Origin: Myxococcales bacterium
GTDB lineage: Bacteria; Myxococcota_A; Polyangia; Polyangiales; Polyangiaceae
Length of the DNA stretch: 35,689 bases
Assembly (NCBI GenBank): GCA_020430845.1
Contig: JAGQJA010000060.1
Coordinates: forward strand, 1 to 35,689
Direction: 5' to 3'
The notes beneath the pieces were generated by a model, which ran no database searches, had not been told where the DNA came from, and saw only the letters and a list, made by a program, of their open reading frames with translations. Position 1 is the first letter of the stretch; every line of letters starts with the position of its first letter. Shown here piece by piece: positions 2,766-25,149 of this stretch. Position numbers and translations under genes: made by a program.

Positions 2766-2898
2766 GATGGCCAGACCCTACCGCAGGCCATTGCATCGGC
2801 CATTCGTATGATCGTGACTCTACTGTATGCTCGAGCGTTACAGTTCTCACCCCGCGCGGGACCCGGGCGGCGCGATCCGACGCGTTACCGGCGCGTCC

Positions 2899-4799: not shown

Positions 4800-5515
4800 C
4801 ACGGCCTCCCATCGAGCTCGGCCGACGGCGCGTGGCACTGCGTGCAGCTCTGCCGCCACGGGTGAGTGCTGCGCACACCGAGCGATCCCCCCACGCCGTG
4901 GCAGCTGCCACAATCGCTCCTCATCCGCGTCGAGTGCGGAATGGTCGGCGGCGCTCCGGGCCACGCGCGCTCACCGACCGTGGGGCTCGCGCGACCGACG
5001 AACGTGTTGCCCGCGAGCGGCTCTCGCGGCGGACCGGGGGGCCCACTCGACGGCGCATGGCACTGCGTGCAGTTGTCGTGGCGCTCGTGACTCATACGCG
5101 GCGCGCGCTTTCCCGCGACGACCAGTCCTCGCGCGTGACAGCCGAGGCACTCGAAGGCGCCGCTCGCGACGACGGCGTGAGGGATCGTCGGTGGCGCGCC
5201 GTCGTATGCGCGTCGCGTCGCGCGGTCCTCGAGCACCGCCGCGCGCTGCGCCTCGGTCTGCGGCGGGACCTCGTCGGTCAGCCCCGGCAGCTTGGCCTCG
5301 AGCGCGTCGAAGGCGGTCTCGTACAGGTGGGCGTTGGGGCCCCGTCGCATGTCACGAAGGTCGCGGTAGCCGGGCGCAGGCGCGCTGGTCACCGGGTACG
5401 GCTGCGCCTCTCTCGAGCTCCGCTTGCGCTCCTGCGAGAGGCCCGTGAAGAAGCCGGCAGCGCCGACGCCGACGGCGAGCACCACGAGAATGTGTGCGAC
5501 GCGCCGCTCGATCAC
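4799..5515 (-). CDS. napB: NapB-type cytochrome c with a duplicated dihaem module (tetrahaem)
   Basis: The electron-transfer subunit of periplasmic nitrate reductase, 238 aa. It starts at GTG 5515, overlapping the napA stop (GTGA). Residues 8-23 are hydrophobic and without a clear cleavage site, so it may be membrane-anchored facing the periplasm. The first NapB unit has the family hallmark APPTIPH (His113), CLGCH (123-127), a ligand His143 and CTQCH (149-153). A second unit repeats the pattern: APPTIPH (His194), CGSCH (202-206), His218 and CTQCH (224-228). Canonical NapB carries only one such unit with two bis-His haems, so this protein should bind four. The N-terminal region (about 40-105) is also longer than usual. 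Assignment to NapB is firm from the hallmark and the place after napA; the haem count is read from the motifs. Confidence 0.9.
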   Translation of the reverse strand: MIERRVAHILVVLAVGVGAAGFFTGLSQERKRSSREAQPYPVTSAPAPGYRDLRDMRRGPNAHLYETAFDALEAKLPGLTDEVPPQTEAQRAAVLEDRATRRAYDGAPPTIPHAVVASGAFECLGCHARGLVVAGKRAPRMSHERHDNCTQCHAPSSGPPGPPREPLAGNTFVGRASPTVGERAWPGAPPTIPHSTRMRSDCGSCHGVGGSLGVRSTHPWRQSCTQCHAPSAELDGRP

Positions 5516-7917: not shown

Positions 7918-8165
7918 CACGCATCTCCTTCGTCGAGGGATCTGTCGACGCCCACGAGCTCGACGAGCAAGACGCCCGGCACGGACGCGATCTCTCGCAC
8001 GAGCGCCTCGCCCTCGTCGGCCGTACGCGTCTCGAGCACGGCGGGGACGCGCGCGCCGACGCGATTGCCTACCTCGACGCGTTCGTCGTCGCGCAACGCT
8101 GCGAGCGCGGCGTCGTGGAGCGTCGCGCGGGCATCGAGCGTGATCACGACGGATGCGATCGGCAT
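7917..8165 (-). CDS. napD: NapD maturation chaperone for NapA
   Basis: An 82-aa cytoplasmic protein of the NapD family, which binds the Tat signal of NapA and holds it back until the cofactor is inserted. It opens with the characteristic first strand (IASVVITLDA), has a central strand-loop pair (RVPAVLETRTADEGEALVREIASVPGV) and ends with LLVELVGVD, matching the ferredoxin-like fold of NapD; the length is close to the usual 80-95 residues. I chose ATG 8165 because the open frame upstream is not NapD-like; no clear ribosome-binding site precedes it. It is the first gene of the leftward operon and overlaps napA by one base. Confidence 0.85.
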   Translation of the reverse strand: MPIASVVITLDARATLHDAALAALRDDERVEVGNRVGARVPAVLETRTADEGEALVREIASVPGVLLVELVGVDRSLDEGDA

Positions 8166-8332: not shown

Positions 8333-8974
8333 ATGGTGCTGTCGCCCGCGGCCGTGACGCCCGTGACCGCAGCGCTGCTCGCCTCGATGCTGGGCGCCGG
8401 TGCGCTCGCGTGCGGACGTGACCAACCGGAGCCGCTTCGACCCGCGCCCGGCGACGCGGAGAGCCCGGTCACGGTGCACCAGCCGCCGAGCCTCACGTCG
8501 GTCGAGACGAAGGAGATCGACGGCCTCGGGCGGCCCGTCCGCGTGGCGTGCGTCACGTGCCACTCGACGCGCGATGCCGGCGGCGCCCTCCCCACTTCGG
8601 CGAACGAGCTGCGTGAGTTCCACGTGGGCCTCACCGTTCGTCACGGCACGCTCGCGTGCGCGTCGTGTCACGCGGCGCGCGCCGGCGGTGAGCCCATGCT
8701 GCACCTCGCGACGGGAGAGGAGCTTCGCACGTCGGAGACCATGCGCCTCTGCGCGCAGTGTCACGGCCCGAAGCTCCGCGAGTACGAGGCAGGCCGTCAC
8801 GGTGGGATGACGGGCCACTGGGATCTGTCGCAGGGTCCGCGCACGCGCAATCACTGCGTGGACTGCCACGATCCGCACGTTCCGGCGTTCCAGCCCTCGG
8901 TGCCGGTGCTGCGACCGCGCGACCGTTTCCTCGCGCCGCCGAGCGCGGCCCACGCCGGAGACTCACATGGATAA
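8333..8974 (+). CDS. Tetrahaem c-type cytochrome of an NrfD-type quinol dehydrogenase module
   Basis: A 213-aa exported cytochrome. Residues 9-26 are a hydrophobic signal ending ALAC, so it may be cleaved by signal peptidase I or lipidated at Cys27. Four haem motifs are visible: CVTCH (73-77), CASCH (109-113), CAQCH (140-144) and CVDCH (175-179). Phrases such as FHVGLTVRHG, RHGGMTGHWDL and GPRTRNHCVDCHDPHVP resemble cytochromes encoded next to Fe-S and NrfD subunits in other phyla (from memory). It overlaps the next gene by 8 bases, so it belongs to the same complex. Its likely job is to pass electrons from the Fe-S/NrfD unit to the periplasmic NapB, replacing NapC; that role is an inference from context. 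Confidence 0.85.
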   Translation: MVLSPAAVTPVTAALLASMLGAGALACGRDQPEPLRPAPGDAESPVTVHQPPSLTSVETKEIDGLGRPVRVACVTCHSTRDAGGALPTSANELREFHVGLTVRHGTLACASCHAARAGGEPMLHLATGEELRTSETMRLCAQCHGPKLREYEAGRHGGMTGHWDLSQGPRTRNHCVDCHDPHVPAFQPSVPVLRPRDRFLAPPSAAHAGDSHG

Positions 8975-9866
8975 GGGGAGGCGGCGCGCGCTCAAGGTCC
9001 TCGGCGGAACCCTAGGCGCAGGCGCCTTTGCCGCCGCCCTCGCCCCGCTCCGGGCCTGGTCCAAGAGCCTGAGCGTCGAGCAGTTCTTACAGAAGCACTA
9101 CAAGGAGCTGTCGCCGTCCGAGCTCGCGGCGACCATGCGCCGGCACGAGCGCGAAGCGAAGGCCAAGTACGGGCGCGACGTGCACATCGAGGACGTACGG
9201 CCGATGGAGGGCGTCCAGTTCGGCTACGCGCTCAACCTCAGCGTGTGCATCGGGTGCCGCAAGTGCGCCGAGGCGTGCCACCACGAGAACAACCACGATC
9301 GCAAGACCAACAACTCCTACATCCGCGTGCTCGAGATGGAGCAAGGCACGTTCGACCTGGAGAAGGGCGACGCGACCTACGATCACCCCGTCCCCGCGCC
9401 CGGAAAGTACTACCTGCCGGTGCAGTGCCAGCAGTGCGACAACCCGCCCTGCGTCAAGGTCTGCCCCGTCCAAGCCACGTGGAAGGAGCGCGACGGGATC
9501 GTCGTGGTGGACTACGACTGGTGCATCGGCTGCCGGTACTGCGAGGCCGCGTGCCCGTATCACGCGCGTCGCTTCAACTGGGAAGCGCCGGAGATCCCCG
9601 CCGACGAGCTGAACACCGAGCAGGCGTACCTGTCCAACCGCGTGCGGCCGCAGGGCGTGATGGAGAAGTGCACCTTCTGCCTGCACCGCACCCGCAAAGG
9701 TCTCCTGCCCGCGTGCCTCGAGGCGTGCCCCACCGGCGCTCGCGTCTTCGGCAACCTCGCCGATCCCGAGAGCGAGATCCGCCGCGTCCTCGCGAACAAG
9801 CGTGTGTTCGTCCTCAAAGAAGACCTCGGTACGAAGCCGCGCTTCTTCTACTTCTTCGACACCTGA
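8967..9866 (+). CDS. Four-cluster Fe-S electron-transfer subunit (NrfC/PsrB/DsrO-like)
   Basis: A 299-aa periplasmic ferredoxin-like protein with a Tat-type start (KGRRRALKVLGG) and a hydrophobic stretch to about residue 30. Sixteen cluster Cys fall in four groups: CIGCRKCAEACHH, CQQCDNPPCVKVCPVQ, CIGCRYCEAACPY, and CTFC with a later CLEACPTGA. This is the four-[4Fe-4S] pattern of NrfC, PsrB and DsrO, the partners of NrfD-type membrane subunits. Its start lies inside the end of the cytochrome gene (8-base overlap) and the nrfD-like gene follows after 3 bases, so the three subunits are made together. It should take electrons from the NrfD quinol site and hand them to the multihaem cytochrome. 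The family is certain; the direction of flow is inferred from the neighbouring nap genes. Confidence 0.93.
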   Translation: MDKGRRRALKVLGGTLGAGAFAAALAPLRAWSKSLSVEQFLQKHYKELSPSELAATMRRHEREAKAKYGRDVHIEDVRPMEGVQFGYALNLSVCIGCRKCAEACHHENNHDRKTNNSYIRVLEMEQGTFDLEKGDATYDHPVPAPGKYYLPVQCQQCDNPPCVKVCPVQATWKERDGIVVVDYDWCIGCRYCEAACPYHARRFNWEAPEIPADELNTEQAYLSNRVRPQGVMEKCTFCLHRTRKGLLPACLEACPTGARVFGNLADPESEIRRVLANKRVFVLKEDLGTKPRFFYFFDT

Positions 9867-9869
9867 GCG

Positions 9870-11156
9870 ATGGCGATGGCGACGACCTCCACCCCCGCTC
9901 CCGACCCCGTGCTCAGCTATCCGCGCTTCATCGCGCGGATGCTCCGGCTCGCGTTCAGCGGCGCTCCCCGCTTCTTCGCGGCGATGAGCGTCCTCACGGC
10001 CGTCGCGCTCGTGGGCCTCAACGGCTGGGCGCATCAGCTCGCGGACGGGATGATCCGTACGAACATGACCGACCACGTGTCGTGGGGGCTCTACATCGCG
10101 AACTTCACGTTCGGCGTGGGCCTGGCCGCGGGCGCCGTGATGATGGTGATCCCCGCGTACCTCTACGACGACGAAGACATGCACGACGTGGTGCTGATCG
10201 GCGAGCTGCTCGCCGTCAGCGCGATCGTCGTCTGCACGCTGTTCGTCGTCGTCGACATGGGGCGCCCCGACCGACTGTGGCACATCGTGCCGGGCGTCGG
10301 CCGGATGAACTGGCCCGTGTCGATGCTCACCTGGGACGTCATCGTCCTCAACGGCTACCTGGCGCTCAACCTGCACATCACGGGCTACCTCGTCTACATG
10401 AAGTACCTCGGGAAGAAGCCAGACAAGCGACTCTACCTGCCGTTCGTCTTCCTCTCGATCGCGTGGGCGATCTCGATCCACAGCGTCACGGCCTTCTTGT
10501 ACTCGGGCCTCGGCGGGCGCCCCTTCTGGAACTCGGCGCTCCTCGCGCCGCGCTTCATCGTGTCCGCGTTCATCACCGGCCCGGCGTTCGTCATCCTGTT
10601 GCTCATGGCGCTCCGCTCCTTCGCGCCGTACTACCGCATCGGCCGAAGACCCATCGACACGCTCGCCAGCGTGCTCCGCGTCACCATCCTGGTGAACCTC
10701 TTCATGTTCGGCTCGGAGCTGTTCACAGAGCTCTACACCGGGAGCGCGCACGGCGCGTCGGCGCGATATCTGTTCCTGGGCCTGCACGGCAAGCACGCGC
10801 TCGTCCCGTGGATCTGGACCGCCGTCGCGCTCAACGTCACGTCCGCGGTGCTCGTGCACTTGCCCCAGAGCCGCACCAAGCGCCGCGTGCTCAACGCCGC
10901 GTGCGTCTGCGCGTTCGGAGGCGTGTGGATCGAGAAGGGCATGGGCCTCATCGTCCCGGGCTTCATCCCGAGCACGCTGCACGAGGTCGTCGAGTACACG
11001 CCGAGCCTCACCGAGTGGAAGGTCTCGGTGGGCATCTGGGCCTTCGGCCTCATGATCTTGGCGATCGCGCTGAAGATCACGCTCCCCGTCCTGAGCGGGC
11101 GGCTCGCGCACAACACGCGCTCCCCCGCGAGCCTCCCTCCCCCCGGAGAACGATGA
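9870..11156 (+). CDS. NrfD/PsrC-family quinone-interacting membrane subunit
   Basis: A 428-aa integral membrane protein with about ten hydrophobic helices, from FFAAMSVLTAVALVGLNGWA near residue 35 to VGIWAFGLMILAIALKITL near the C terminus. It matches the NrfD/PsrC family (Pfam NrfD), which oxidises or reduces quinones at the outer face of the inner membrane and docks a four-cluster Fe-S protein. The start ATG 9870 follows the Fe-S gene by 3 bases, and its TGA overlaps the next start in ATGA. With the two preceding genes it forms a Cyt-FeS-NrfD module comparable in make-up to Qrc, Nrf or Alternative Complex III. No NapC or NapGH is present, so this is the best candidate for the menaquinol oxidase that supplies NapAB. 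Confidence 0.92.
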   Translation: MAMATTSTPAPDPVLSYPRFIARMLRLAFSGAPRFFAAMSVLTAVALVGLNGWAHQLADGMIRTNMTDHVSWGLYIANFTFGVGLAAGAVMMVIPAYLYDDEDMHDVVLIGELLAVSAIVVCTLFVVVDMGRPDRLWHIVPGVGRMNWPVSMLTWDVIVLNGYLALNLHITGYLVYMKYLGKKPDKRLYLPFVFLSIAWAISIHSVTAFLYSGLGGRPFWNSALLAPRFIVSAFITGPAFVILLLMALRSFAPYYRIGRRPIDTLASVLRVTILVNLFMFGSELFTELYTGSAHGASARYLFLGLHGKHALVPWIWTAVALNVTSAVLVHLPQSRTKRRVLNAACVCAFGGVWIEKGMGLIVPGFIPSTLHEVVEYTPSLTEWKVSVGIWAFGLMILAIALKITLPVLSGRLAHNTRSPASLPPPGER

Positions 11157-12277
11157 AGCACGCGCACCGCGCTCTGTTCACTTGGTCGGCGCTCTTGGTG
11201 AGTGGCGCGGCGAGCGCGGCCCAGCCGCAGACCGAGCCCGAGCCCCAACCCGTCGCGCCCGAGCCCGCGCCCGTCGCGCCCGAGCCCGAACCAGCCGCGC
11301 CCCCGCCCGCTGCGCCCCAGCCCGAGGCTCCCCCGCCCGAGGCTCCTCCGGCCCCCGCGCGCGCCACGCCCGAGCCCGATCCTCCTCCCACGCCCGCGCC
11401 CGCTCCTTCGCGCCCCTCCACGCCTGCTGCGCCCTACTCCGTGCCGTGGCAGCTGCGGCCTGTCGTGGCGCCGACGGTCGTACGCATCGAGCAAGGCTTC
11501 GCGCGCTACGAGGACGCCAACGCGAACGGAGGCCTCACCGCCACGACCGTCCTCACGGCCTCGTACAAGATCCCCGGCACCGGCGAGAAGCTCGCGGGCC
11601 TCGCGCCCGTGATGCGCCTCGCGTTCGTGGTGGACGATCCGCCGCCGGGCGGACGTGGCGGGAACAGCTTGGTCAATCCGCTCCTCGGCGCCGCCTACGC
11701 GATGAAGCTCGGGGGCGGGCTCCGCCTCAACGGCTTCTTCGGCGTCACGCTGCCGGTCGGCGGCGGCGGTGGCGCGTCACCCCACCCTGGCACGGTCGAC
11801 GCGCGCACCAAGGGCATCAACGCGCGCGCGCAGATGGACAACGCCCTCTTCGCGGTCAACGACCTCACCGTCATCCCGGGTGTCGGCGCCGCGTGGGTCG
11901 CGCACGGGCTCACCGTGCAAGTCGAGGCCACCGTGCTGCATCTCATGCGAGTGCGAGGAGAGGCCGTGCAGCCCGAGGCGAGCAAGACCAACTTCACCTC
12001 GGGATTGCACGTCGGCTACTACATCGTCCCGGAGCTCTCCGTCGGCGCGGAGCTGCGGTACCAGCGCTGGCTGAACCCGCCCATCGCGTTCGAAAAGGAC
12101 CCCACCGAGCGAACGCTCGACAACCTCACCGCCGCCATCGGACCGCGCGTTCACGTCAAGGCGGGCCCACTCACACTTCGGCCCGGGATCGCGTATGCCC
12201 GAGGGCTCGACAAGCCGCTCGCCGCTGCGACGCCCAACTATCACCTCGTGACGTTCGACGTCCCCGCGTTCTTCTGA
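11153..12277 (+). CDS. Pro/Glu-rich outer-membrane beta-barrel coupled to the NrfD module
   Basis: A 374-aa exported protein whose ATG overlaps the nrfD-like stop (ATGA). A signal peptide covers residues 1 to about 22. Residues about 24-95 are an extreme Pro/Glu/Ala linker of PEP-type repeats, rigid and periplasm-spanning in character. From about residue 97 to the end the chain alternates short amphipathic strands with Gly/Asn/Asp turns and ends in Phe (FDVPAFF), the usual signature of an outer-membrane barrel. No specific porin family is recognisable. Its fixed place in the respiratory operon suggests a channel for nitrate or nitrite across the outer membrane, or an anchor for the cytochromes, but this is inference. 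The linker DNA (about 11220-11435) is repetitive and could vary in length between strains. Confidence 0.8.
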   Translation: MKHAHRALFTWSALLVSGAASAAQPQTEPEPQPVAPEPAPVAPEPEPAAPPPAAPQPEAPPPEAPPAPARATPEPDPPPTPAPAPSRPSTPAAPYSVPWQLRPVVAPTVVRIEQGFARYEDANANGGLTATTVLTASYKIPGTGEKLAGLAPVMRLAFVVDDPPPGGRGGNSLVNPLLGAAYAMKLGGGLRLNGFFGVTLPVGGGGGASPHPGTVDARTKGINARAQMDNALFAVNDLTVIPGVGAAWVAHGLTVQVEATVLHLMRVRGEAVQPEASKTNFTSGLHVGYYIVPELSVGAELRYQRWLNPPIAFEKDPTERTLDNLTAAIGPRVHVKAGPLTLRPGIAYARGLDKPLAAATPNYHLVTFDVPAFF

Positions 12278-14577: not shown

Positions 14578-14614
14578 CGCGGCGTCGGCGATCGCTGCGA
14601 CCGCTCGGTCGTCA
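14575..14614. terminator. Imperfect hairpin between convergent genes
   Basis: TGACG (14575-14579) faces CGTCA (14610-14614), with further partial pairing inside, including GCGG (14579-14582) with CCGC (14601-14604) and a central GCGATCGC palindrome. Both stop codons sit in the outer stem. No U-tract is present; a candidate bidirectional terminator only. Confidence 0.3.
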
Positions 14615-16153
14615 GTCTCCCTCGCGCAGCCACTCGCCGAAGCGCTCGCCGATCATGAGGCTGGGCAGGTGCGTGTTGGAGCTGGGGATCGTGGGCATGA
14701 TGCTCGCGTCGGCGACGTAGAGGCCGCGCACCCCGCGCACGCGACCGCGACCGTCGACCGCCGCCATCGCGTCGCCTTCGGGGCCCATCGGCACCGTGCC
14801 CGACGGGTGGTAGCCCGAGCCCGTGATCTGCTCGAGCGGTCCGCGGTACTCGCCCGCCTCGTCGAAGGGCCGGCGCTTGGGATAGATGGGACGCGCGAGC
14901 GCCTTGATCGCGCGCGTCTCGGCGAGGCGCGCCACGACGCGGAGCGCCTCTCGGCCCATCGCGCGCTCGGCGTCGTCCGAGAAGAAGCACGTCTCGAGCC
15001 GCGGCCGCGCGGTCGCATGCGTCGAGCGGAGCCGAAGCCGGCCGACGGACCGCGGCTTGCCGATGCACACCGCGATCGTGACGGCGGCGAGCGGCAGGTG
15101 CGGCAACGGCACGAACGAGCCGGGCTGCACCTGGATGTCGCTCGGGCACGTCGAGCCGCCGGTCGTCGACGAGAAGCGATGCACCGTCTGCACGAGCGGA
15201 TGGTCGACGCGGCTCATGCCCGCGCGGTGGGGCAAGAAGAAGATCGCCATCCCCGGGTGATCGAGCAGGCGCGCCCCCACGCCGGGCACGTCGGCGACCA
15301 GCTCCACGCCGAGCCGCGCGAGCTCGTCGCGCGGTCCGACGCCCGAGCGCAAGAGCACCGACGGAGAGCCGATCGCCCCGCCCGCGAGCACGACGCGATC
15401 GGCGAGCAGCTCTCGCACCGCGCCGTGACGCTCGAGCTCGACACCTTGCGCGACGCTGCCCTTGAAGAGCACGCGCCGCACGAGCGCGTGGTCGACGACG
15501 CGCAGGTTGTCGCGCGCGCGCACGTCGCGCGTGAGGTACGCGCGCGCCGCGCTGACGCGCTGGCCGTCGATCTTGTTCATGGCGTGCGGCCCCGCGCCGT
15601 GCGAGCCGGGCCGGTTGGTGTCTTCGCACGACGGCAAGCCGAGCTCTTCGCACGCCTCGAGGAAGGCCGCTTGCCAGGGCACGAGCTCGCCGGGGGTGTG
15701 TCGCCGCACCGGGAGCGGCCCGTCGGTCCCGTGCCACGAATCGCTGAAATCGTGATCACGCTCGAGCCGCTTGAACGCGGGCAGGCAGCGCTCCCAGCTC
15801 CACTCGGGCAGACCGAGCGCCGCCCACTCGTCGTAGTCCTCGGGCTGACCGCGGAGCGCGATGCACGTGTTGACGGCCGACGAGCCCCCCACGACGCGCC
15901 CGCGCGGGTACTCCATGGGGAGCGCGCTCCAGAGCCGGTGCTCGGTCGCGCGGTACCAGTAGCCCCAGTCGTGCCCGTGCAGCGCGTTCTGTCGTCCGTC
16001 GCGGAGCGCCTCGGGCAGCGTCTCTGGGCGTTCGGCCGCGTCGACGTAGTCGGGCCCCGCCTCGACGAGCACCACCTCGTGCCGGCGATCCTCGGTGAGC
16101 CTCGCGGCGATGACCGCTCCCGCCGCGCCGGCGCCCACGACGATCGTTCGCAC
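14612..16153 (-). CDS. GMC-family FAD-dependent oxidoreductase
   Basis: A 513-aa glucose-methanol-choline oxidoreductase, starting at GTG 16153. The N terminus has the FAD Rossmann motif G7xG9xxG12 and Glu31 for the ribose; GGSSAVN (89-95) is the conserved flavin-contact loop. The active site is in GYHPSG (His449) and SNTHLPS (His495), so both catalytic positions are His, as in glucose oxidase, where many GMC dehydrogenases have His/Asn. No signal peptide is present, so it is cytoplasmic. The substrate is an alcohol or sugar that cannot be named from sequence. It lies 44 bases after the CarB-like gene on the same strand and may be the last gene of the arginine operon transcript, although a metabolic link to arginine is not evident. 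Confidence 0.9.
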   Translation of the reverse strand: MRTIVVGAGAAGAVIAARLTEDRRHEVVLVEAGPDYVDAAERPETLPEALRDGRQNALHGHDWGYWYRATEHRLWSALPMEYPRGRVVGGSSAVNTCIALRGQPEDYDEWAALGLPEWSWERCLPAFKRLERDHDFSDSWHGTDGPLPVRRHTPGELVPWQAAFLEACEELGLPSCEDTNRPGSHGAGPHAMNKIDGQRVSAARAYLTRDVRARDNLRVVDHALVRRVLFKGSVAQGVELERHGAVRELLADRVVLAGGAIGSPSVLLRSGVGPRDELARLGVELVADVPGVGARLLDHPGMAIFFLPHRAGMSRVDHPLVQTVHRFSSTTGGSTCPSDIQVQPGSFVPLPHLPLAAVTIAVCIGKPRSVGRLRLRSTHATARPRLETCFFSDDAERAMGREALRVVARLAETRAIKALARPIYPKRRPFDEAGEYRGPLEQITGSGYHPSGTVPMGPEGDAMAAVDGRGRVRGVRGLYVADASIMPTIPSSNTHLPSLMIGERFGEWLREGD

Positions 16154-16197: not shown

Positions 16198-18252
16198 TCA
16201 CGCGTCGGCGTTCCACGTCGCGAGAGAGCTGGGCGCGCGCGCCGTGCCCTCTTCGAGCGCGCGCACGGCCACCTCGACGAGCTCGACCGTGGTGAAGCAC
16301 GCGACGCGCGCCCCGAGCGCCGCGCGACGGAGCTCGGCGCCTTCTCCGGGGGCGACGACCGCGTGGTAGCGACCGCTCGCGATCGCGCGCGCCGGATCGC
16401 GCTCGAGCTGGTGGGGCACACGCAGCTTGTCGAGCCACGTGGCCGCCTCCGCGGTGGTCACGAGCTCGAAGCCGAGCGCGTAGAGGCGCCGGCCCAGGTC
16501 GGCCATCAGCGCGGAGCCGCCCGCGGACCCCGCGACGAGCACACGCGAGCGCTCGCCTTCGGCCGGGGGCGCCAGATCGACGCCCATCGCCGCGAGGGCC
16601 TTGGCGTAGGCGCGGCCGACCGTCTTGGCGATGCCGAGGACCGTGCCGGTCGAGCGCGCGTGGCGGCCGAGCTTGGTGTCGGCGGCCCCGAGCTCGGCGA
16701 AGGCAAAGACGTGCTCCTCGACCGCCACGTGGCGCGGCACCGGCGGCGGCTCGGGGTCGACCGGACCTCCGAGCGCGACGGCGAAGGCCTCGGAGACGAG
16801 ATCGCGACCGAGCACGTGCTCGAGCGAGAGCACGTGCGTGGTGACCCCACGCGTGACCCCGAGCAGCGTACGCGACGGCGACGCACCGAGCACGATCGCG
16901 AAGCGCGCGGTCACGAGGCCGCGGCCACCGGCGACGCGCGCGACCTCGAGCGCCGCGTCCTCCGCGTCGCGCAGCGCGTCCTCGGGCAAGGTGAGCGACG
17001 GGAAGACGGCCGCGGCGTCGCTCGCGTGCACCCCACGCTCCACGTGCTCGAAGGTGCCGACGACCTTCGCCACGTCTCCGCCGGCGATCGTGACGACGTG
17101 CAGCTCGATGGCCGCCGGATCGACCTCTGCGACCGAGTCCGACGACGACGCGTCGGCGTCAGAGCCAAAATCTCGAATCACTGCGAGCATCTGCGCACCC
17201 GAGAGGGAGCTCGGAGAGTCCCCCAGGACGCGCGCGTCCTCGCCCCGACCGAGGTCCTCGCGGCTCGTGATCACACGCACGGGCCGACCCATGGCGCGCG
17301 CGAGCGCGGCCGCTCGACGCGTCGCGGCGCTCGCCTCTTCGCCGTGGCCCGCGCGGGGCGGCGCCGGTCCGAGGAGCACGACGACGTCGTCCTTGGGAGG
17401 CACGGACGGGATGGGCGCGACCTCGCTGAGGACCACGCGGCCGCCGAGGCTCCGCGCCACGGCACGATCGGCGACCGCGACCTCGGGCGCGCTCTCGTCG
17501 AACGTCGGCGCGCGCAGGTGCGTGCGCACGCGGACGCTCTCGGCGCCGCGCTCCGAGGTCGCCGCGGTCACGGACGCACCGTCGAGCAGGCGCGCGAGCA
17601 CGCGACCGGCCCCGAGCCCCACCGCCGCGGCTCCCCATCCCCACAGCGAGCTGTCGAGCGGCTCCGCGAGGACGATCGCTCCCGCCGCGACGCGGACGGT
17701 GAAGAGCCCGCGCGGCAGCTCGACCCGAGCGAGCGCCGCGGCGACCGGCGCCGGCGGCTCGACGAACGTGTGCGTGGCGTCGCACGGCGCGAGGCCCGCC
17801 GACGTGTCGGCGGCGAAGACCGCGAGGACAGACGCGCCCGCGCCGTCGGAGGCGACGACGGCGTCGAACACGGGACCGCCCGGCGCGTCGAGCTCGGCGC
17901 GGGCCGTGCGGCTCGCGGCGTAGAGCGCCGACGGTGAGCGACCGAGCCAGGGCAGGTCGTCGAGGGTCGACCCGAGCGATCGGGCGACGAAGATCCCCAT
18001 CGCCTCGGCGACGAGCACGTCGGCCTGGGACGCGGCCGCGACGGCGCGCACCGACGCGGGGGTGAGCGGCTCGAGGAAGCGGTGGGCGGTGAAGCCAGGC
18101 TCGAGCAGCGCCGACGTCGGGGACGCGTCGACCACGGCGATCTCGTGCCCGAGCGACGCGAGCGCCGACGCCACCTCGCGCGCGAGCGACGAGGAGCCGA
18201 CGCCGACGCCGGGCCTCACCGGTCCCGGTCCGACGACCAGCACGCGGCTCAT
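16198..18252 (-). CDS. Degenerate CarB-like protein with an MGS domain, probable non-catalytic regulator
   Basis: A 684-aa protein with the full order of a carbamoyl-phosphate synthetase large chain in shortened, eroded form (CarB is about 1070 aa). Residues 3-75 match the first pre-ATP-grasp domain (VLVVGPGPVRPG, then EPLTPASV). Residues 183-225 resemble the end of ATP-grasp 1, and 287-365 the second pre-ATP domain. Residues 375-495 match ATP-grasp 2 (EVDPAAIEL, EHVERGVHASDA, TARFAIV), and 512-560 match the following segment (LGRHARSTGTVLGI, AYAKALAAMGVDL). Residues 568-668 form an MGS domain, the part of CarB that binds ornithine, UMP or IMP. The ATP-grasp IEVNPRAART metal site is replaced by LGASPSRT, so catalysis looks lost. 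ATG 18252 overlaps the argH stop (ATGA). An allosteric or sensory role in arginine synthesis is my inference. Confidence 0.8.
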   Translation of the reverse strand: MSRVLVVGPGPVRPGVGVGSSSLAREVASALASLGHEIAVVDASPTSALLEPGFTAHRFLEPLTPASVRAVAAASQADVLVAEAMGIFVARSLGSTLDDLPWLGRSPSALYAASRTARAELDAPGGPVFDAVVASDGAGASVLAVFAADTSAGLAPCDATHTFVEPPAPVAAALARVELPRGLFTVRVAAGAIVLAEPLDSSLWGWGAAAVGLGAGRVLARLLDGASVTAATSERGAESVRVRTHLRAPTFDESAPEVAVADRAVARSLGGRVVLSEVAPIPSVPPKDDVVVLLGPAPPRAGHGEEASAATRRAAALARAMGRPVRVITSREDLGRGEDARVLGDSPSSLSGAQMLAVIRDFGSDADASSSDSVAEVDPAAIELHVVTIAGGDVAKVVGTFEHVERGVHASDAAAVFPSLTLPEDALRDAEDAALEVARVAGGRGLVTARFAIVLGASPSRTLLGVTRGVTTHVLSLEHVLGRDLVSEAFAVALGGPVDPEPPPVPRHVAVEEHVFAFAELGAADTKLGRHARSTGTVLGIAKTVGRAYAKALAAMGVDLAPPAEGERSRVLVAGSAGGSALMADLGRRLYALGFELVTTAEAATWLDKLRVPHQLERDPARAIASGRYHAVVAPGEGAELRRAALGARVACFTTVELVEVAVRALEEGTARAPSSLATWNADA

Positions 18253-19553
18253 GTGGACAGCTCCGCGCGGAGGCGGTCGGCGCGGACCGCGATCTCGTCG
18301 AGCCGGAGGTCGGCGCACGCGCCCGGAGACACGCGGGCCCGCACGCTGTCTTCTGGTGTGCGCGCGCCGAGCGACGCGAGCTCGCCGGCCACCTGCCGGT
18401 ACGCGTCGCGAAACGGCGCGCCGTCGCGCACGAGCTCGACGGCCCGGTCGGTCGCGTACGTCCCGGGAGAGATGGCGGCGCGCATACGCTCCTTGTCGAA
18501 CGTGAGCTCCGCGACGAGGCGCGGCACGAGCGCGATCGCGGCGCGGGCGTGCTCGACGGCGCGCACGAAGGGCTCTTTCGTCCCCTGGAGGTCGCGGTGG
18601 TAGCCGGAGGGCAGCGAGAGGCACGCCGCGATCTCGGCCTCGGCCCCGAGCACCCGCGCGGCCGAAGCCCGCAAGAGCTCGACGACGTCCGGGTTGCGCT
18701 TGTTGGGCATGATCGATGACCCCGTCGTGAACGCGTCGGGGAGCCCGACGAACGCCAGCTCCTCCATGGTGAAGAGCGAGAGATCCCAGGCGAGCCGTCG
18801 CACGTCGAGCATCGACGAGCGCACCGCGGCGAGAAGCCCGAGCTCGAGCTTGCCGCGCGACGACTGCACGTTCATGGGGTTGAGCTGCAGCGCCGCGAAG
18901 CCGAGCTCGTCGGCCACGCCCTGACGGTCGAGCGGAAGGTTGACGCCGAAGCCCGCCGCGGTGCCGAGCGGCGAGCGATCGAGCCACCGCGCGGTGAGCG
19001 CGAGGTGCTCGGCGTCCTCGACGAAGCCCTCCGCGAACGCGGCCATCCACAGACCGACCGTCGAGGGGACCGCCCGCTGCAGATGCGTGTACCCTACAAG
19101 TGGAGCGTCGGCATCGCCGCGCGCGCGCCCCAGGCACGCGCTCGCGCAGTCGAGCGTCGCCATGGCGAGCTCCTTGGCGCGGGCCCTGCCGTACAGGCGC
19201 AGCGCGACCTGCACCTGATCGTTGCGGCTGCGCCCGGCGTGCACGCGGCGTCCCACCTCGCCCGCCCGGCGCACGAGCTCGGCCTCGATGGCCGAGTGGC
19301 CGTCCTCGAAGCGCGCGTCGAGCACGAAGGCGCCCGACTCGAAGTCGGCGCGGAGCGCGTCGAGCGCCGCGTCGAGGCTCGTCACGTCGTCGGCCGTGAG
19401 CACGCCGATGCGCGAGAGGCCGTGCGCGTGCGCGCGCGTCGCGTCGATGTCGAACGTGAAGAGGTGGCGATCGACGAGGACGTCCTCCCCCGCGCAGAAC
19501 GCCTGGATCGCGCTGTCGGGCGCTCCGCCGCCCTTGGCCCAGAGGAGGCTCAC
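18249..19553 (-). CDS. argH: Argininosuccinate lyase
   Basis: Splits argininosuccinate into arginine and fumarate, the last step of arginine synthesis. The protein is 434 aa, close to the usual 450-470, and belongs to the fumarase/aspartase superfamily. The start is GTG 19553, which overlaps the argC stop (GTGA). Visible hallmarks are HAGRSRNDQV (106-115), YTHLQRAVPST (155-165, with the catalytic Thr-His pair) and the superfamily signature GSSIMPNKRNPD (278-289) with its mobile-loop Ser. The N terminus has LLWAKGG, equivalent to the usual LWGGRF-type opening. The CarB-like gene follows with an ATGA overlap. All catalytic features appear intact. Confidence 0.96.
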   Translation of the reverse strand: MSLLWAKGGGAPDSAIQAFCAGEDVLVDRHLFTFDIDATRAHAHGLSRIGVLTADDVTSLDAALDALRADFESGAFVLDARFEDGHSAIEAELVRRAGEVGRRVHAGRSRNDQVQVALRLYGRARAKELAMATLDCASACLGRARGDADAPLVGYTHLQRAVPSTVGLWMAAFAEGFVEDAEHLALTARWLDRSPLGTAAGFGVNLPLDRQGVADELGFAALQLNPMNVQSSRGKLELGLLAAVRSSMLDVRRLAWDLSLFTMEELAFVGLPDAFTTGSSIMPNKRNPDVVELLRASAARVLGAEAEIAACLSLPSGYHRDLQGTKEPFVRAVEHARAAIALVPRLVAELTFDKERMRAAISPGTYATDRAVELVRDGAPFRDAYRQVAGELASLGARTPEDSVRARVSPGACADLRLDEIAVRADRLRAELST

Positions 19554-20479
19554 GAGAGCACCCCCACGCCCTCGTCGAGCCCGCGCGCGAGGTTCATGGC
19601 ACGGACGGCCTGCGAGGCCGCGCCGGCGAGCAGGTTGTCGAGGGCCGCGACCACCACGACGCGCGCGCCGTCGTCGCCCACCGCGGGCAGCCCCACCCGC
19701 ACCCCGTGCTTGCCCACGAGATCGCGCGGGCGCGGCGGCGCGTCGGTCACCTCGACGAATCGCGACCCGCGGTACGCGTCTCGGTACGCGGCGACGAGCG
19801 ACTCGGCGGCGGTCTTCTCGGCGAGGTCGATCATGACCGTGCACGAGAGCCCGCGAAAGAACGACGCGACGTGCGGCGCGAAGCACACGTCGAGGCCGAG
19901 GTGGCGGCGAAGCTCGCGCTCGTGCGCGTGCCCGACGAGCGAGTACGGCAAGAGGTTGTCGCGCAGCACCTCGGGATCGTTGCGCTCCGACGGCGTCGTG
20001 CCGGCGCCGCTGTAGCCGCTCACACCGAACGCGCAGACGGTCCCCCTGGCGCGGGACGCGACCGGCGCGATCGCGAGCTGCGCGGCGGTGGCGTAGCACC
20101 CCGGACAGGACAGGCGCTTGCTCCCGACGATCGCGTCACGAAAACGGTCGGGCTGCGCATAGACCCAGCGGTCGTCGAACCTGTGATCGCTCGACAGGTC
20201 GACCAGCGTGACGTCGCCCGCGACCTCGGCCCACGCGGGGGCCTCGCCGTTGGGCAGCGCGAGGAACGCGACGTCGACGTCGCGGCGCGCGAGCAGCTCG
20301 ACCGACGCCGGCGCGAAGTCGAGACCGGCCGGCGCCGCCGCGCACGTGGCCTGCACGGGCGTGCCCGCCGCCGACTTGGAGGTCACCCAGGCGACCTCGA
20401 CCTCGGGGTGCCGGAAGAGGATGGGCAACAGCTCGGAGCCCACGTGCCCCCGCGCCCCGACGACGCCGACGCGGATCAC
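19550..20479 (-). CDS. argC: N-acetyl-gamma-glutamyl-phosphate reductase
   Basis: Reduces N-acetylglutamyl phosphate to N-acetylglutamate semialdehyde with NADPH. The 309-aa protein starts at GTG 20479, overlapping the argAB stop (GTGA). The NADP-binding loop is GVVGARGHVG near residue 5, and the catalytic Cys128 lies in SCPGCYATAA, equivalent to the family motif PGCYPTA. Other matches are FLALPNGEAP, LVDLSSDHRF, FGVSGYSGAG and FAPHVASFFRG. The length suits the short form of ArgC. Its place between argAB and argH fits pathway order within the operon. Confidence 0.95.
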   Translation of the reverse strand: MIRVGVVGARGHVGSELLPILFRHPEVEVAWVTSKSAAGTPVQATCAAAPAGLDFAPASVELLARRDVDVAFLALPNGEAPAWAEVAGDVTLVDLSSDHRFDDRWVYAQPDRFRDAIVGSKRLSCPGCYATAAQLAIAPVASRARGTVCAFGVSGYSGAGTTPSERNDPEVLRDNLLPYSLVGHAHERELRRHLGLDVCFAPHVASFFRGLSCTVMIDLAEKTAAESLVAAYRDAYRGSRFVEVTDAPPRPRDLVGKHGVRVGLPAVGDDGARVVVVAALDNLLAGAASQAVRAMNLARGLDEGVGVLS

Positions 20480-21840
20480 GACGCGGCCCCCGGCGCCGCG
20501 ACGACGGGCGGCGAGGACGTGGTGTCGGGCGCGCCGTCCTTGAGCGTCGCCTTCATGGCGCGCGCCCGCTCGACGCACGCGCGGATCTCGTCGAAGTCAT
20601 CCATTCCACACCAGAAGATCCAGAAGTCCTTGGCCTTGACCAATCCGTCGGCCTGCTGCGCGTACCACGTGTTGACCGGATTCTGCGCGCGCGAGCGCCA
20701 GAAGAGCTTGGGGGTGTCGGCGCGCAGCCTGCGCCAGAGCGACCCGCCGATGCCCTCGCCCTGCGCCTCGGGGGTGACGGCGAACTTGTCGAGGTAGGGC
20801 ACCGCGCCCTCGCGCGTGACGATGGCCGTCGCGCGGTACGACTCGGCCAGGTAGACGCGGAGCGGCTCCTTGAGCGCGAAGTAGTCGACGTGGAGCCGAC
20901 GTCCGAAGCACTCCTCGAGCAGCCCGCGCAGCCGCGGCGTGTCGATCGGCTCGAAGCCTGCATGTACACGAATCTGCTCGCCGCGGCGCACGAGCGTGCC
21001 GGCGCCGCGGTAGGTGAAGAGCTCGCGGGCGAGGTGCTCCGGAGAGGTGACCGAGGCCGACGAGGTGGGCGGGAGCTGCGCCAAGAGCTCCGTGAGGATG
21101 ACGAGCTCGTGGCGCGACGCCGGATCGAGATCACGCTCCGCGAGGACGCGCTCGTAGTCCTCGGCGAGGTTGACGGCGGGGATCACCGCGCCGCTCCGCT
21201 CGACCAGGCCGCCGCGGTTGCTCAAGAAGACGACCTTGTGCGGGCGGAGCGCCAGCGCGATCTCGCGGGCGACGACGTCGGCGTGCACGACCGCGATCTG
21301 GCCGCCGATCGTCTCGCCGAACGGGCTCACCACGGGGATCGCGCCGGAGCGCGTCGCGGCGACGAGCGCGGCGTGGTGCGTCTTGACGGGCACCGGCACG
21401 AGCCCGCGCTCGCCCTCGAGCGTGGCGCTCACCTGCAGCACGCCAGACGTGAACGGGCGCGCGCGCGTGCCGAGCGCCTCGAGCGCGTCGACGACCTGGC
21501 CGCCGACGTCGAGCAGCGCTGGGCGCGCGATCTCGAGGACCTGCGGCGTCATGGGCAACATGCCGTCGACGAGCGGCACGGACAGGCCGGCCTCGGACAC
21601 GGCGCGCTCGATCTGCACGCCGCCGCCGTGCACGACGATGGGCGCCATGCCCACCGCCTTGAGGAACGAGAGCGACGAGGCCAGGCTCTCGACCGACGCG
21701 TCGACGACCGACCCGCTGACCTTGATGACGGCGAACTTCGGCGCGTCGCCGCTAGCGTAGTGGCGGAGGTACTGCTCGACCTCCTTCTTGCTCCCGATGT
21801 TGTCGAGGAGCCGCACGATGATGTCGCGGGTGTCGCTCAT
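20476..21840 (-). CDS. argAB: NAGS/NAGK-type acetylglutamate synthase with an amino acid kinase domain
   Basis: A 454-aa two-domain protein of the vertebrate-like NAGS/K class. Residues about 34-285 are an amino acid kinase fold (FAVIKVSG with Lys40, VVHGGG 69-74, LSNRGGL). Residues about 290-435 are the DUF619 GNAT acetyltransferase, with YLDKFAVTPEAQGEGIGGS and WRSRAQNPVNTWY (381-393). In Xanthomonas and Maricaulis such proteins both make and phosphorylate N-acetylglutamate. Here, compared from memory with those proteins and E. coli NAGK, the NVNAD motif is VVHAD (184-188) and the active-site Lys before the helix ahead of LLAQLP appears as Glu245. The kinase may therefore be weak or lost, as in animal NAGS. 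The acetyltransferase half looks intact. ATG 21840 overlaps argE' (ATGA); argC follows. Confidence 0.93.
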   Translation of the reverse strand: MSDTRDIIVRLLDNIGSKKEVEQYLRHYASGDAPKFAVIKVSGSVVDASVESLASSLSFLKAVGMAPIVVHGGGVQIERAVSEAGLSVPLVDGMLPMTPQVLEIARPALLDVGGQVVDALEALGTRARPFTSGVLQVSATLEGERGLVPVPVKTHHAALVAATRSGAIPVVSPFGETIGGQIAVVHADVVAREIALALRPHKVVFLSNRGGLVERSGAVIPAVNLAEDYERVLAERDLDPASRHELVILTELLAQLPPTSSASVTSPEHLARELFTYRGAGTLVRRGEQIRVHAGFEPIDTPRLRGLLEECFGRRLHVDYFALKEPLRVYLAESYRATAIVTREGAVPYLDKFAVTPEAQGEGIGGSLWRRLRADTPKLFWRSRAQNPVNTWYAQQADGLVKAKDFWIFWCGMDDFDEIRACVERARAMKATLKDGAPDTTSSPPVVAAPGAAS

Positions 21841-22931
21841 GCCCGTCCCTCGGCCCCGGCGGAGCGCCGCAAGATGCGCACGTAGTGCTCGGCCGCGCGG
21901 GCGATCTCGTCGAGCATCACGAACTCGTCGGCGCCGTGCGCCTGCGCGATGCGTCCAGGACCGAGCACCATCGCCGGCAGGTCGGCCTCGGAGAAGAGCG
22001 AGGCCTCGGTCCAGAAGTCGACCGAGGCGCCGATGGGCAGATCACAGAACGACGCGAGCTCGCGGGCGCGGCGGCCGAGCTCCGTCGTCTTGGGCAGCGG
22101 CGGGCCGCGGAACGACACGTCGAGCGTCGCGCCCGGCGCGAGCGCCGCGAGGCGCGCGAGGGCCTCGGCCGGGTCGAGCTCGGGCGGAGGTCTGACGCCG
22201 AAGCGCGCCTCCGCACGCCCGGCCACGACGTTGGGCTTCTCGCCTCCCTCGACGCGCCCGACGTTGAGGCGCAGGCCGCGGAGCTCGGTCTCGCCCGAGT
22301 CGGCCATACGCTCGGCCTCGTCGAGCGCGGCCACGGTCCAGCGCGCCATGTCGTGGATCGCGCTGTGCGATCCGGCCACGGACGCGTGTCCCGCCCGCCC
22401 GGTGAACGTCATCTTGCCCGAGCCGATGCCGCGGTGCGCGAGCACGGCCTCGGCGCCCGTGGGCTCGGCGACGACGGCGAAGCGATAGCCCTCGTGCCCC
22501 TTGGCGCGGATGAGCTCGCGGATGCACGTCGACTTGCCCGCCTCTTCGTCGGTGGTGAAGAGCAGCGCGCAGGGCTCCCGCGTCGCGGCCGCGGCGGCGA
22601 TCATCGCGGCCGCTCCGCCCTTGACGTCGCACGCGCCGAGACCGAAGGCGCGATCGCCCTCGACGACGAGCTCGAACGGATCGCGCGTCCAACCGGGCGC
22701 CACGGGCACCGTGTCGACGTGCGCGTTGAAGAGCACGCGCGGCTCACCCCGGCTGGCGAAGACCGACACGCAGCCCTCGCCGTGATCGGTGAGCGACACC
22801 TCGAGGTCGAGCACGCGCAGGCTCGCGGCGAGGCGCTCGACGAGCGCGTCGGGGCGACGCGGCGGGTTCGTCGAGTCGCTCGCGACGAGCCACGTGAGCT
22901 CGCTCAGCGCGTGTTCGAGGAGCGTCTCCAC
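21837..22931 (-). CDS. argE': N-acetylcitrulline deacetylase, M20 family
   Basis: Removes the acetyl group from N-acetylcitrulline to give citrulline. The 364-aa M20 metallohydrolase has the two-metal site: His71 and Asp73 in NAHVDTVP, Asp102 in GACDVKGG, Glu129 and Glu130 in TTDEE, Glu156 in VVAEPT and His332 in AQAHGADEF. Long stretches match the Xanthomonas acetylcitrulline deacetylase as I recall it (AEAVLAHRGI, FTGRAGHAS, IGASVDFWTEASLFS, GPGRIAQAH) better than classical acetylornithine deacetylase. The neighbouring acetylornithine carbamoyltransferase makes the acetylcitrulline assignment consistent. GTG 22931 follows the argG stop with no gap, and the 3' end overlaps argAB (ATGA). Confidence 0.9.
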   Translation of the reverse strand: METLLEHALSELTWLVASDSTNPPRRPDALVERLAASLRVLDLEVSLTDHGEGCVSVFASRGEPRVLFNAHVDTVPVAPGWTRDPFELVVEGDRAFGLGACDVKGGAAAMIAAAAATREPCALLFTTDEEAGKSTCIRELIRAKGHEGYRFAVVAEPTGAEAVLAHRGIGSGKMTFTGRAGHASVAGSHSAIHDMARWTVAALDEAERMADSGETELRGLRLNVGRVEGGEKPNVVAGRAEARFGVRPPPELDPAEALARLAALAPGATLDVSFRGPPLPKTTELGRRARELASFCDLPIGASVDFWTEASLFSEADLPAMVLGPGRIAQAHGADEFVMLDEIARAAEHYVRILRRSAGAEGRA

Positions 22932-24137
22932 TCACGCCCCGTCGGAGCGCGGGTTCACCTTGGCCGACAGCTCGGCGCTCTGACCCAACAGTCGGATGAA
23001 GCCTTCGGCCTCGCGCGCGGTCCACCCCGCGACCTGCGCGTACGTGGCGTCCTTGGCGCGGAGCACGTGTGGGCTGTCGACGGCGACGGCGAGCACGACC
23101 CCGCCCTCGGTCTCGAGCGTGACGTCGCCCGTGACGAAGCGCTGCGAGCTACGGATGAAGGCCTCGAGGTCGTCCTTGAGCGGTTCGAAGAAGAAGCCCT
23201 TGTAGACGAGCTCGACCCACTTGCGCGCGACGAGCGGCTTCATGCCGTTCTGTTGCGAGGTGAGGATCGTCTCTTCGAGCGCGCGGTGCGCGACGAGCAG
23301 CCCCGTGATGCCGGGAGCCTCGAAGACGATGCGGCCCTTGAGCCCGACCGTGGTGTCGCCGGTGTAGATGCCGCGACCGACGCCGTACGCGCCGAGGCGC
23401 TCGTTGAGCGCGCGGAGGATGGCGGCGCCGGCCATCGGCTTGCCGTCGAGGGCGACCGGCACGCCGCGCTCGAACCGGAGCTTGATGCGCAGGCGCTCCT
23501 TGGGCCACTTGGCGGCGGGCGCACACCACAGGTGCGTCTCGTCGCCCGGGGCCTCCCACTCGTCGATCTCCGAGCCGCTCAGCGTGGCGCCGAGCAGGTT
23601 CTCGTTGACGGTGTAGCGCACCTGCTTGGCCGGGATGGGGTGGCCACGCTCCTCGAGGTACGCGCGCTCGAACTCGCGGACCCGCGGGTGGTCGTCTTGG
23701 ATCTCGCGGACCGGCGCGAGGATCTCGTAGTCGCCCTTGGCGCGCACCGCGAGATCGAACCGGACCTGATCGTTGCCCATGCCCGTGCAGCCGTGCGCGA
23801 CGGTGCGCGTGCCGTGCTTCTCGGCGATCGCGAGGGCGCGGTCGACGATGACGTACCGGTCGCTGACGAGCAGCGGGTACTGGTCTTGGTAGAGCTGACC
23901 GCCCATCACGAGCGGCACGACGATCTGCTCGAACACGGCGTCCGCGCCGTCCTCGACGATGTGCTCCACGGCGCCGAGGGCCTTGGCGCGGGCGCCGAGC
24001 GCCTCGCGTTCTGCCGCAGGTACGCCGCCGGTGTCGACGAACACCGTGATCACCTCGTGGCCCTTCTCTTTGAGCCACGGGATGCAGAAGCTGGTGTCGA
24101 GACCCCCCGAGTAGGCCAGGATCACCTTCGAGCCCAT
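22932..24137 (-). CDS. argG: Argininosuccinate synthase
   Basis: Joins citrulline and aspartate with ATP to form argininosuccinate. The 401-aa protein opens with the PP-loop signature AYSGGLDTS (8-16). Other family features are [16 protein letters not shown], which binds citrulline and aspartate, and [17 protein letters not shown] 24137 is preceded by a strong GAGGAGG ribosome-binding site five bases away, and argF' ends ten bases upstream. The sequence phrases ([18 protein letters not shown]) resemble the divergent ArgG found in the Xanthomonas-type operon, in line with its neighbours. Confidence 0.96.
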
Positions 24138-24147
24138 CGTGTCCTCC

Positions 24148-25149
24148 TCAGCCGGCGAGCAGCCGGCACATGACCGCTTTTTGAACGTGAAGGCGGTTCT
24201 CCGCCTCTTCGATGACGAGGCTCCGCTCCGACGAGACGACCCCGTCGGTCGCCTTGACGTTGCGGCGGAGCGGCAAGCAGTGGCTGAAGTACGCCCCGTC
24301 GGTCATGGCCATCTTGGCCTCGTCGACGATGAAGTGCTTGTGCGCGTCGCGGATCGGCTTCTCGCCCTCCCACTTGCCGAAGTACGGCAGCGCGCCCCAG
24401 CTCTTGGCGTACACCACGTGCGCGCCCGCGTAGGCGCTCTCGATGTCGTGCGACATCGTGAACGTGCTGCCCGCCGCCGACACGTTCTCGCGCGCGGCGT
24501 TCATGTAGCGCTCGTCGAGCGCGTACTCGGGCGTGGGGCAGAGCAGCGTGACGTCGAAGCCCATCTTCGTCGCGGCGATGAGCGCCGAGTTGGCGACGGC
24601 CGTGTTGAGCGGCTTGGGGTGGTACGTCCACGTGAGGACGAGCTTCTTCTTCTCGAAGGAGCCGAGCTTCTCGCGCAGCGCCAGCAGCATGGCGAGCTCT
24701 TGGCACGGGTGCGTGATCGTCTCCATGTTGAGCACGGGCACCGTGGCGTACTTGGCGAACGCCTGGATCACGCTGTCGGTGCGGTCTCTGGCCCAGTCGA
24801 CGAACTTGGGAAACGCGCGCACGCAGATGAGGTCGAAGTAGCGCGAGAGGACGCGCGCGACCTCGGCCACGTGCTCCTCGGCCTCGCCGAGCATCTCGAC
24901 GCCGTCCTCGAACTCGATCGGCCAGGCGCCCTTGCCGGGCTCGAGCACGACAGCGTGACCCCCGAGCTCGAAGACGCCGATCTCGAACGACGAGCGCGTG
25001 CGAAGCGACGGGTTGAAGAAGACGAGGGCGACGGTCTTGCCGGCGAGATCGCGCCGCCCCTTGCGCGCCTGCTTGTGGGCACGCGACGCCTCGAGGAGCT
25101 GGTCGAGCTCGGCCCGCGACCAGTCGAGCGTGGAGAGAAAGTGGCGCAT
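24148..25149 (-). CDS. argF': N-acetylornithine carbamoyltransferase
   Basis: Transfers the carbamoyl group from carbamoyl phosphate to N-acetylornithine, giving N-acetylcitrulline. The 333-aa protein closely follows the Xanthomonas campestris enzyme as I recall it: [15 protein letters not shown] (44-58, carbamoyl-phosphate loop), GKGAWPIEF (72-80), [12 protein letters not shown] (90-101), ITHPCQELA (145-153), [17 protein letters not shown] (173-189) and [13 protein letters not shown] (290-302). Lys299 aligns with the carboxylated Lys of that enzyme. Glu91 aligns with the Glu that selects acetyl over succinyl substrates. Ordinary ornithine carbamoyltransferases instead have the SMG loop and HCLPAxR. 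It is the first gene of the operon, starting at ATG 25149 with no strong ribosome-binding site. Confidence 0.95.

Follow-up and report, generated by a model that had tools for sequence, protein, structure and literature searches.

Here we describe a gene for a reduced relative of the carbamoyl-phosphate synthetase protein CarB, which lies on the minus strand at positions 16198-18252 of a 35,689-nt contig from a Myxococcales bacterium (JAGQJA010000060.1; this whole stretch of DNA is hereafter the window). The gene belongs to a CarB paralogue (CarB2) found in the arginine operon of its genus, alongside a second type, CarB1, encoded elsewhere. Its 684-aa product may be a maintained pseudoenzyme that derives from the arginine-operon CarB of the genus, senses a metabolite of the arginine pathway and acts in trans on CarA-CarB1, a reading that we hold tentatively and with confidence short of an even chance.

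The open reading frame (ORF) starts with an ATG at 18250-18252, ends with a stop at 16198-16200 and overlaps argH by a shared ATGA (junction CACATGAGCC), as an earlier sequence-only reading of this DNA had described; against the 1073 residues of E. coli CarB the product has 389 fewer, close to the 390 estimated there. The CarB ancestry that it proposed was borne out by the NCBIfam profile NF003671 (E 7.7e-30, 103.2 bits, best over profile positions 750-1050), by TIGR01369 (E 9.6e-23), by hhalign against an intact CarB (99.8 %, E 1e-27, residues 376-683) and by the grouping of the protein with CarB2 proteins in trees; judged from these comparisons, the homology is not due to chance. Both profile scores fall below the CarB family cut-offs (599 bits for NF003671; 79.8 bits scored versus 1027 for TIGR01369). 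Alignment places a first preATP (Rossmann-like) domain at aa 1-118 (17899-18252; all segments on the minus strand), matched by Pfam PF25596 over aa 2-86 (E 1.5e-5, 25.3 bits, slightly below the cut-off of 27), followed by a first ATP-grasp remnant that consists of the C-lobe only (aa about 119-275; 17428-17898) and a degraded second preATP domain (aa about 286-366; 17155-17397), before which the oligomerisation domain is missing. The second ATP-grasp C-lobe (C-lobe2; aa 372-562; 16567-17139) is the best-conserved part by alignment, hhalign and model, and the allosteric MGS domain (aa about 563-684; 16201-16566), recognised by the same three means, yielded no Pfam MGS match at E up to 1. A full-length model built on a 5-row alignment reached a predicted local distance difference test (pLDDT) score of 40.2 and is usable only as a hint for the MGS domain. 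The MGS fold, as originally proposed, is preserved in a structural prediction and packs on C-lobe2 as in CarB.

The reduction is modular. The window protein lacks E. coli positions 131-202, 394-426 plus 432-554, 608-635 and 674-751, and the other reduced copies of the genus lack 131-196, 416-554 and 673-741 (751 in L059). We take the missing 131-202 and 674-751 to be the lids (B subdomains) of the first and second ATP-grasp fold, which sit at matching sites of the two halves, so the two complete lidded folds of CarB are absent from the window protein. Of the oligomerisation domain, delimited as 401-552 of E. coli CarB in PMC6245113, it retains a few residues only. The claim that most of the first ATP-grasp is gone needs narrowing: the loss concerns chiefly the lid, and the C-lobe survives, though it matches the other reduced copies at only about 24 % identity. 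The metal/ATP motif LIEVNPRAART is degraded to VLGASP--SRT, as had been read. Among the residues to which we ascribe, by assumption, Mg/ATP roles, Q285, N301 and R303 of the first half are lost and E299 aligns with E; in the second half Q829, E841, N843 and R845 are lost and H788 and R848 kept. The four reduced relatives have lost the first-half ATP/Mg residues largely and retain E841, R845, R848 and H788 in the second. Because the lids are absent, synthetase activity is very unlikely, and with most Mg/ATP residues gone as well the window protein is apparently catalytically dead, as the sequence-only reading held. We regard it as very improbable that the protein is still an active enzyme catalysing a novel or leftover reaction, such as one that uses carbamate or carbamoyl phosphate and needs no ATP: the four residues kept in the relatives, and the H788 and R848 kept in the window, would suit this, whereas lids are absent from both halves and the window has also lost E841, N843 and R845.

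The paralogue was traced in 12 genomes of the genus (Labilithrix-like Polyangiaceae), the window's assembly (G000) comprising 8.56 Mb in 806 contigs at 88.7 % completeness. A second CarB, whole or reduced, occupies the arginine operon in all 12, and the window gene shares this CarB2 location in an AOTCase (N-acetylornithine carbamoyltransferase)/argBA/argC operon. Seven copies are intact, with 1067-1084 aa (L042-L045, L048, L062, L063), and five are reduced: the window's (684 aa), L046 (791 aa), L047 (793 aa), L061 (792 aa) and that of G144, split across two contigs (L060, L059) that overlap with small differences. The complete reduced copies of 791-793 aa are 33-35 % identical to the window protein, and all five start 4 nt within the preceding gene. 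That gene is argC in the other 11 genomes and argH intervenes in the window only, contrary to the earlier expectation that homologues would always adjoin argH. The expected coexistence with a separate CarB did hold: G000 encodes a further CarB, present as two fragments on separate contigs that match profile positions 1-545 and 838-1057, and one CarA above the cut-off, and across the genus CarB1, whole or in pieces, and one such CarA each occur in 11 of 12 genomes, the sole genome without either being G147 (72 % complete). AOTCase is present in 11/12 (in G147 the contig starts close to argC), and none of the 12 yielded an ArgJ. A contig scan with narrow patterns returned four loci, all already known, which does not show absence elsewhere. 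A DNA motif of the reduced clade gave five chance-like matches with two mismatches in 282 genomes of the phylum, a sample that excluded the four other reduced-copy genomes, and none in the window's own genome, which makes the scan uninformative. Beside the intact CarB2 of L063 (G145, C90), the AOTCase gene at 2510-3522 is broken, 38-59 % alike in pieces and with an internal stop; G145 has an intact AOTCase on another contig, C237.

In E. coli CarB the MGS domain binds ornithine, an activator, and uridine monophosphate (UMP), an inhibitor. We took E783, D791 and E892 to be side-chain ligands of ornithine and K954, T974, T977, K993, N1015, T1016 and T1017 to be UMP-site positions; T1042 and S948 are named as CarB allosteric-site residues in PMC6245113. 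Eight positions (E783, D791, E892, F895, C1040, F1041, T1042 and T1043) were identical in all 12 CarB2 proteins (seven intact, four reduced and the window's). As aligned, the window protein has all four residues by which we judged the ornithine site, namely E405 for E783 (17038-17040), D412 for D791 (17017-17019), E513 for E892 (16714-16716) and T1042 within the CFTT stretch at aa 652-655, equivalent to 1040-1043 (16288-16299). Sensing of UMP, also part of the original proposal, is not supported by the residues: K993, N1015, T1017 and D1025 are replaced or missing in 12/12 CarB2 including the intact copies; the window protein reads ASTA-APG at S948, K954, T974, T977, K993, N1015, T1016 and T1017, with only T974 kept. 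In CarB1 the UMP residues read SKTTKNTT in 11/11 and E892 is replaced in 11/11 (Q in 10, H in one). To judge by these residues, the two allosteric sites appear divided, UMP to CarB1 and ornithine to CarB2. Outside the genus, both sites were intact and E892 present in 22/22 CarBs, the best 22 of 56 matched non-genus genomes (144 genomes compared, of which 80 without a match at 1e-20 were left out of the site comparison). Two findings temper the division. In three further genera of Polyangiaceae that possess AOTCase (g79, g31, g29) the CarB is of a different type with A892, so that E892 is not universal in the family, and a second CarB of G104, outside any arginine operon, is without the UMP site and keeps E892. 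The A892 type at L084-L088 (G156, G134, G174, G131) also has an altered UMP site. The second CarB of G104 (L049, 7112-10354) is full-length, adjoins genes at 5227-7059 and 10362-11408 for an O-carbamoyltransferase and a GDP-mannose dehydratase, and is possibly a dedicated synthetase for carbamoylated sugars.

As the background for pocket retention we used the 172 C-terminal positions that do not vary among intact CarB2; 82 of them are retained in the window and 107 in all four reduced relatives. The window kept eight of the nine sites first chosen (P 0.012), or 8/8 once site 893 was dropped (P 0.002), and 4/4 side-chain ligands (P 0.05), as compared with 3/8 Mg/ATP sites of the C-terminal lobe (P 0.83); the latter were kept in all four reduced relatives at 5/8 (P 0.65). 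Measured against the 106 positions that vary in neither intact nor reduced copies, of which the window retains 66, the 8/8 gave P 0.019. The case for retention of the pocket beyond chance in the window protein is suggestive and short of proof. All 12 CarB2 sequences also carry Y1040C beside the pocket, a change that would fit a bulkier ligand.

Selection was gauged from ratios of nonsynonymous to synonymous change (dN/dS, by NG86), which among the four reduced relatives ranged from 0.24 to 0.46 in 5/6 pairs and indicate that purifying selection acts on them. C-lobe2 and MGS were the tightest regions in three reduced pairs (0.11-0.28, versus 0.21-0.48 in other regions), whereas in two intact pairs MGS stood at 0.36-0.45, C-lobe2 at 0.22 and 0.41, and the remainder at 0.11-0.25. 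Mean identity of C-lobe1 fell from 92.1 % in intact pairs to 55.2 % in reduced pairs, and that of MGS was 63.5 % in six reduced pairs versus 58.9 % in 21 intact ones; the MGS/C-lobe1 divergence ratio lay between 0.66 and 0.98 for reduced pairs and between 3.7 and 11.5 for intact ones, and averaged 3.3 over 36 CarB1 pairs. The ornithine half of the sensing proposal draws indirect support from this constraint on the C-terminal unit of the four relatives and from the eight invariant pocket positions. The window gene itself has the codon structure of a working gene, with GC at the first, second and third codon positions (GC1, GC2, GC3) of 0.796, 0.571 and 0.917, the other arginine operon genes having GC3 of 0.93-0.96. 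In neutral simulations from a reduced relative, stops had appeared in all but 4 of 300 runs at 0.25 changes per site and in every run at 0.5 or above, and GC3-GC2 fell to 0.003 at 5 changes per site. These results bear on the view that CarB2 is a decaying relic, a dispensable duplicate shrinking without function, with the window copy further along. The long stem of the reduced group (1.0 change per site), the extreme window branch and the modest pocket statistics speak for such decay; the purifying selection, shared deletions and freedom from stops of the reduced relatives, together with the GC3-GC2 of 0.346 in the window gene, a difference that the simulations lose, speak against it, and we consider it rather unlikely.

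How the reduced genes arose was addressed with trees. The reduced copies other than the window's formed one clade in C-terminal CarB2 trees (99/100; 92/100) and in a tree of AOTCase, argBA and argC (99/98). Full-column CarB2 protein trees joined the window to these four copies (97/95; 99/97) and disfavoured a tree with the window outside (approximately unbiased test, AU p 0.006); on C-terminal columns only, the test did not decide its placement (AU p 0.31), and one tree set it outside the other CarB2. The CarB1 tree rejected a grouping of the window's genome with G119, G142 and G144 (AU p 0.023; G147 is without CarB1). Two separate losses of the same modules would account for this, as would a distinct history of the reduced gene through transfer or hidden paralogy. 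It seems quite doubtful, taken as a whole, that the UMP and ornithine roles were split between CarB1 and CarB2 after duplication, that the same three modules were then shed independently in the window's lineage and the four-species clade, and that what remained is a free-standing effector-sensing subunit whose pocket, once for ornithine, has come to suit N-acetylornithine and which gives CarB1 back, in trans, its control from the arginine side.

We infer ligand binding, the ligand's identity, the partner and the direction of effect on that partner along the following lines. With both lids and most Mg/ATP residues gone, the CarB2-derived protein would not bind ATP productively, and its second-half C-lobe would stay packed on the MGS domain at the interface where E. 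coli CarB binds ornithine. There it may sense an arginine-pathway metabolite, ornithine or N-acetylornithine. CarA-CarB1 would be the only remaining synthetase and, its ornithine ligand E892 lost and its UMP site kept, would respond to UMP inhibition only; the reduced CarB2 could then supply the arginine-side signal to it, pairing via regulatory domains, through which E. coli CarB protomers pair according to PMC6245113. The target of such a sensor might instead be the operon's AOTCase or another arginine enzyme, which we judge unlikely. The co-directional position behind argC or argH, overlapping it by 4 nt in all five reduced copies, and the presence of AOTCase in 11/12 genomes, would fit that target; the retained C-lobe2 plus MGS, by contrast, includes the regulatory domain that PMC6245113 implicates in dimerisation of E. 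coli CarB. A CarA-decoy role was also considered and is disfavoured: the oligomerisation domain, one of the two that contact the small subunit in E. coli (with the carboxyphosphate domain; PMC6245113), is gone.

Several observations weigh against a ligand-sensing pseudoenzyme acting on CarA-CarB1. The AOTCase route does not pass through ornithine; since the pathway runs via N-acetylornithine in this genus, as the distribution of AOTCase and ArgJ indicates, that compound is as good a ligand candidate as ornithine. The pocket P values vary with the choice of sites: the three equivalent tests gave 0.084, 0.020 and 0.147 in the four reduced relatives, and against the 106 shared invariant positions the window's 4/4 ligands gave 0.145. 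The window gene's branch is very long (5-8 changes per site over all columns), which makes long-branch attraction a real risk in its placement, and its dN/dS against its relatives is saturated (0.82-0.89). Constraint is looser on the reduced copies than on CarB1 (0.07-0.08, two pairs) and generally also than on intact CarB2 (0.10-0.28, four pairs). Two further frames of the CarB-like stretch, one sense and one antisense, contain a single stop each, so that little weight can rest on the gene's open frame by itself. According to PMC6245113, oligomerisation as such leaves the regulation of carbamoyl-phosphate synthetase unaffected in E. coli; pairing alone thus need not transmit a signal. Finally, the four reduced relatives also retain the first-half counterparts of E783 and D791, of which the window has the D alone, so that the specific part of the pocket is E892 with the 1040-1043 stretch. 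Persistence of those counterparts, in a half that has no ornithine site in E. coli, would be expected of a ligand-free scaffold or carbamoyl-phosphate channelling adaptor with pocket residues kept for packing only, and PMC6022934 describes channelling to transcarbamylases in other organisms. Packing alone, however, explains poorly why E892 is replaced in every CarB1 and kept in every CarB2, and reduced copies conserve MGS slightly better than intact ones do; we deem the scaffold unlikely, albeit worth appreciable weight, and retain the sensor acting on CarA-CarB1 as our tentative preference.

The embedding of the gene in an arginine operon was confirmed. On the minus strand the order is AOTCase (24148-25149; NF003384, 545.7 bits, cut-off 288), argG (22932-24137; NF003385, E 6.5e-185), a deacetylase of the acetylornithine/acetylcitrulline type (21837-22931; NF006439, E 1.1e-118), an argB-argA fusion of acetylglutamate kinase with an N-acetylglutamate synthase (NAGS) acetyltransferase domain (argBA; 20476-21840; NF003387, E 1.4e-146; Pfam NAT), argC (19550-20479; TIGR01850, E 9.5e-75), argH, encoding argininosuccinate lyase (18249-19553; TIGR00838, E 6e-90), and the CarB-like gene. 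The stretch from AOTCase to argH (18249-25149) presumably resembles the Xanthomonas operon in gene order. In the stretches examined from the remaining 11 genomes, the arg genes beside CarB2 were limited to AOTCase, argBA and argC (argC alone in G147, where the contig starts), and no argG or argH of the window's kind was seen adjoining it; L062 also holds an argE-like gene, farther away. A GMC-type oxidoreductase gene (14612-16153, minus strand) begins 44 bases after the reduced CarB gene and may share its transcript. Elsewhere, the window encodes a respiratory module, in which an NrfD-type membrane protein comes after a multi-cluster 4Fe-4S protein (8967-11156, plus strand), and a frame of 1041 aa that carries multihaem cytochrome domains towards its C-terminal end (4799-7924, minus strand; NapB, E 4.8e-9; Cytochrome_C7).

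Compared with E. coli CarB (PDB 1jdb, 1m6v), the window protein is without the ATP lids, the oligomerisation domain, most Mg/ATP residues and the UMP site. With the intact CarB2 of seven genomes it shares the AOTCase operon, the kept ornithine pocket and the lost UMP site; those copies stand directly behind argC, at full length and with both ATP-grasp sites intact. The other reduced copies (L046, L047, L061, L059/L060) are alike in the three missing modules, the pocket and the 4-nt overlap with an arg gene, and differ in following argC, in length and in their low identity to the window protein. In human CPS1 the effector likewise acts via the C-terminal domain, although CPS1 is active and its effector is N-acetylglutamate, as reported in the abstract of PMC4655335. 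A limited search of the open-access literature returned no paper on a lidless or dead CarB.

Carbamoyl phosphate stands at the fork of arginine and pyrimidine synthesis, and in E. coli one enzyme reads both ornithine and UMP. In this genus the two signals were apparently split between paralogues, one of which then dropped catalysis while its putative ornithine-binding unit remained the best preserved, suggesting an enzyme turned sensor that kept above all the part for an ornithine-like signal. Intact, reduced and far-reduced stages coexist in the genus, and the path from enzyme to sensor may thus be traced step by step.
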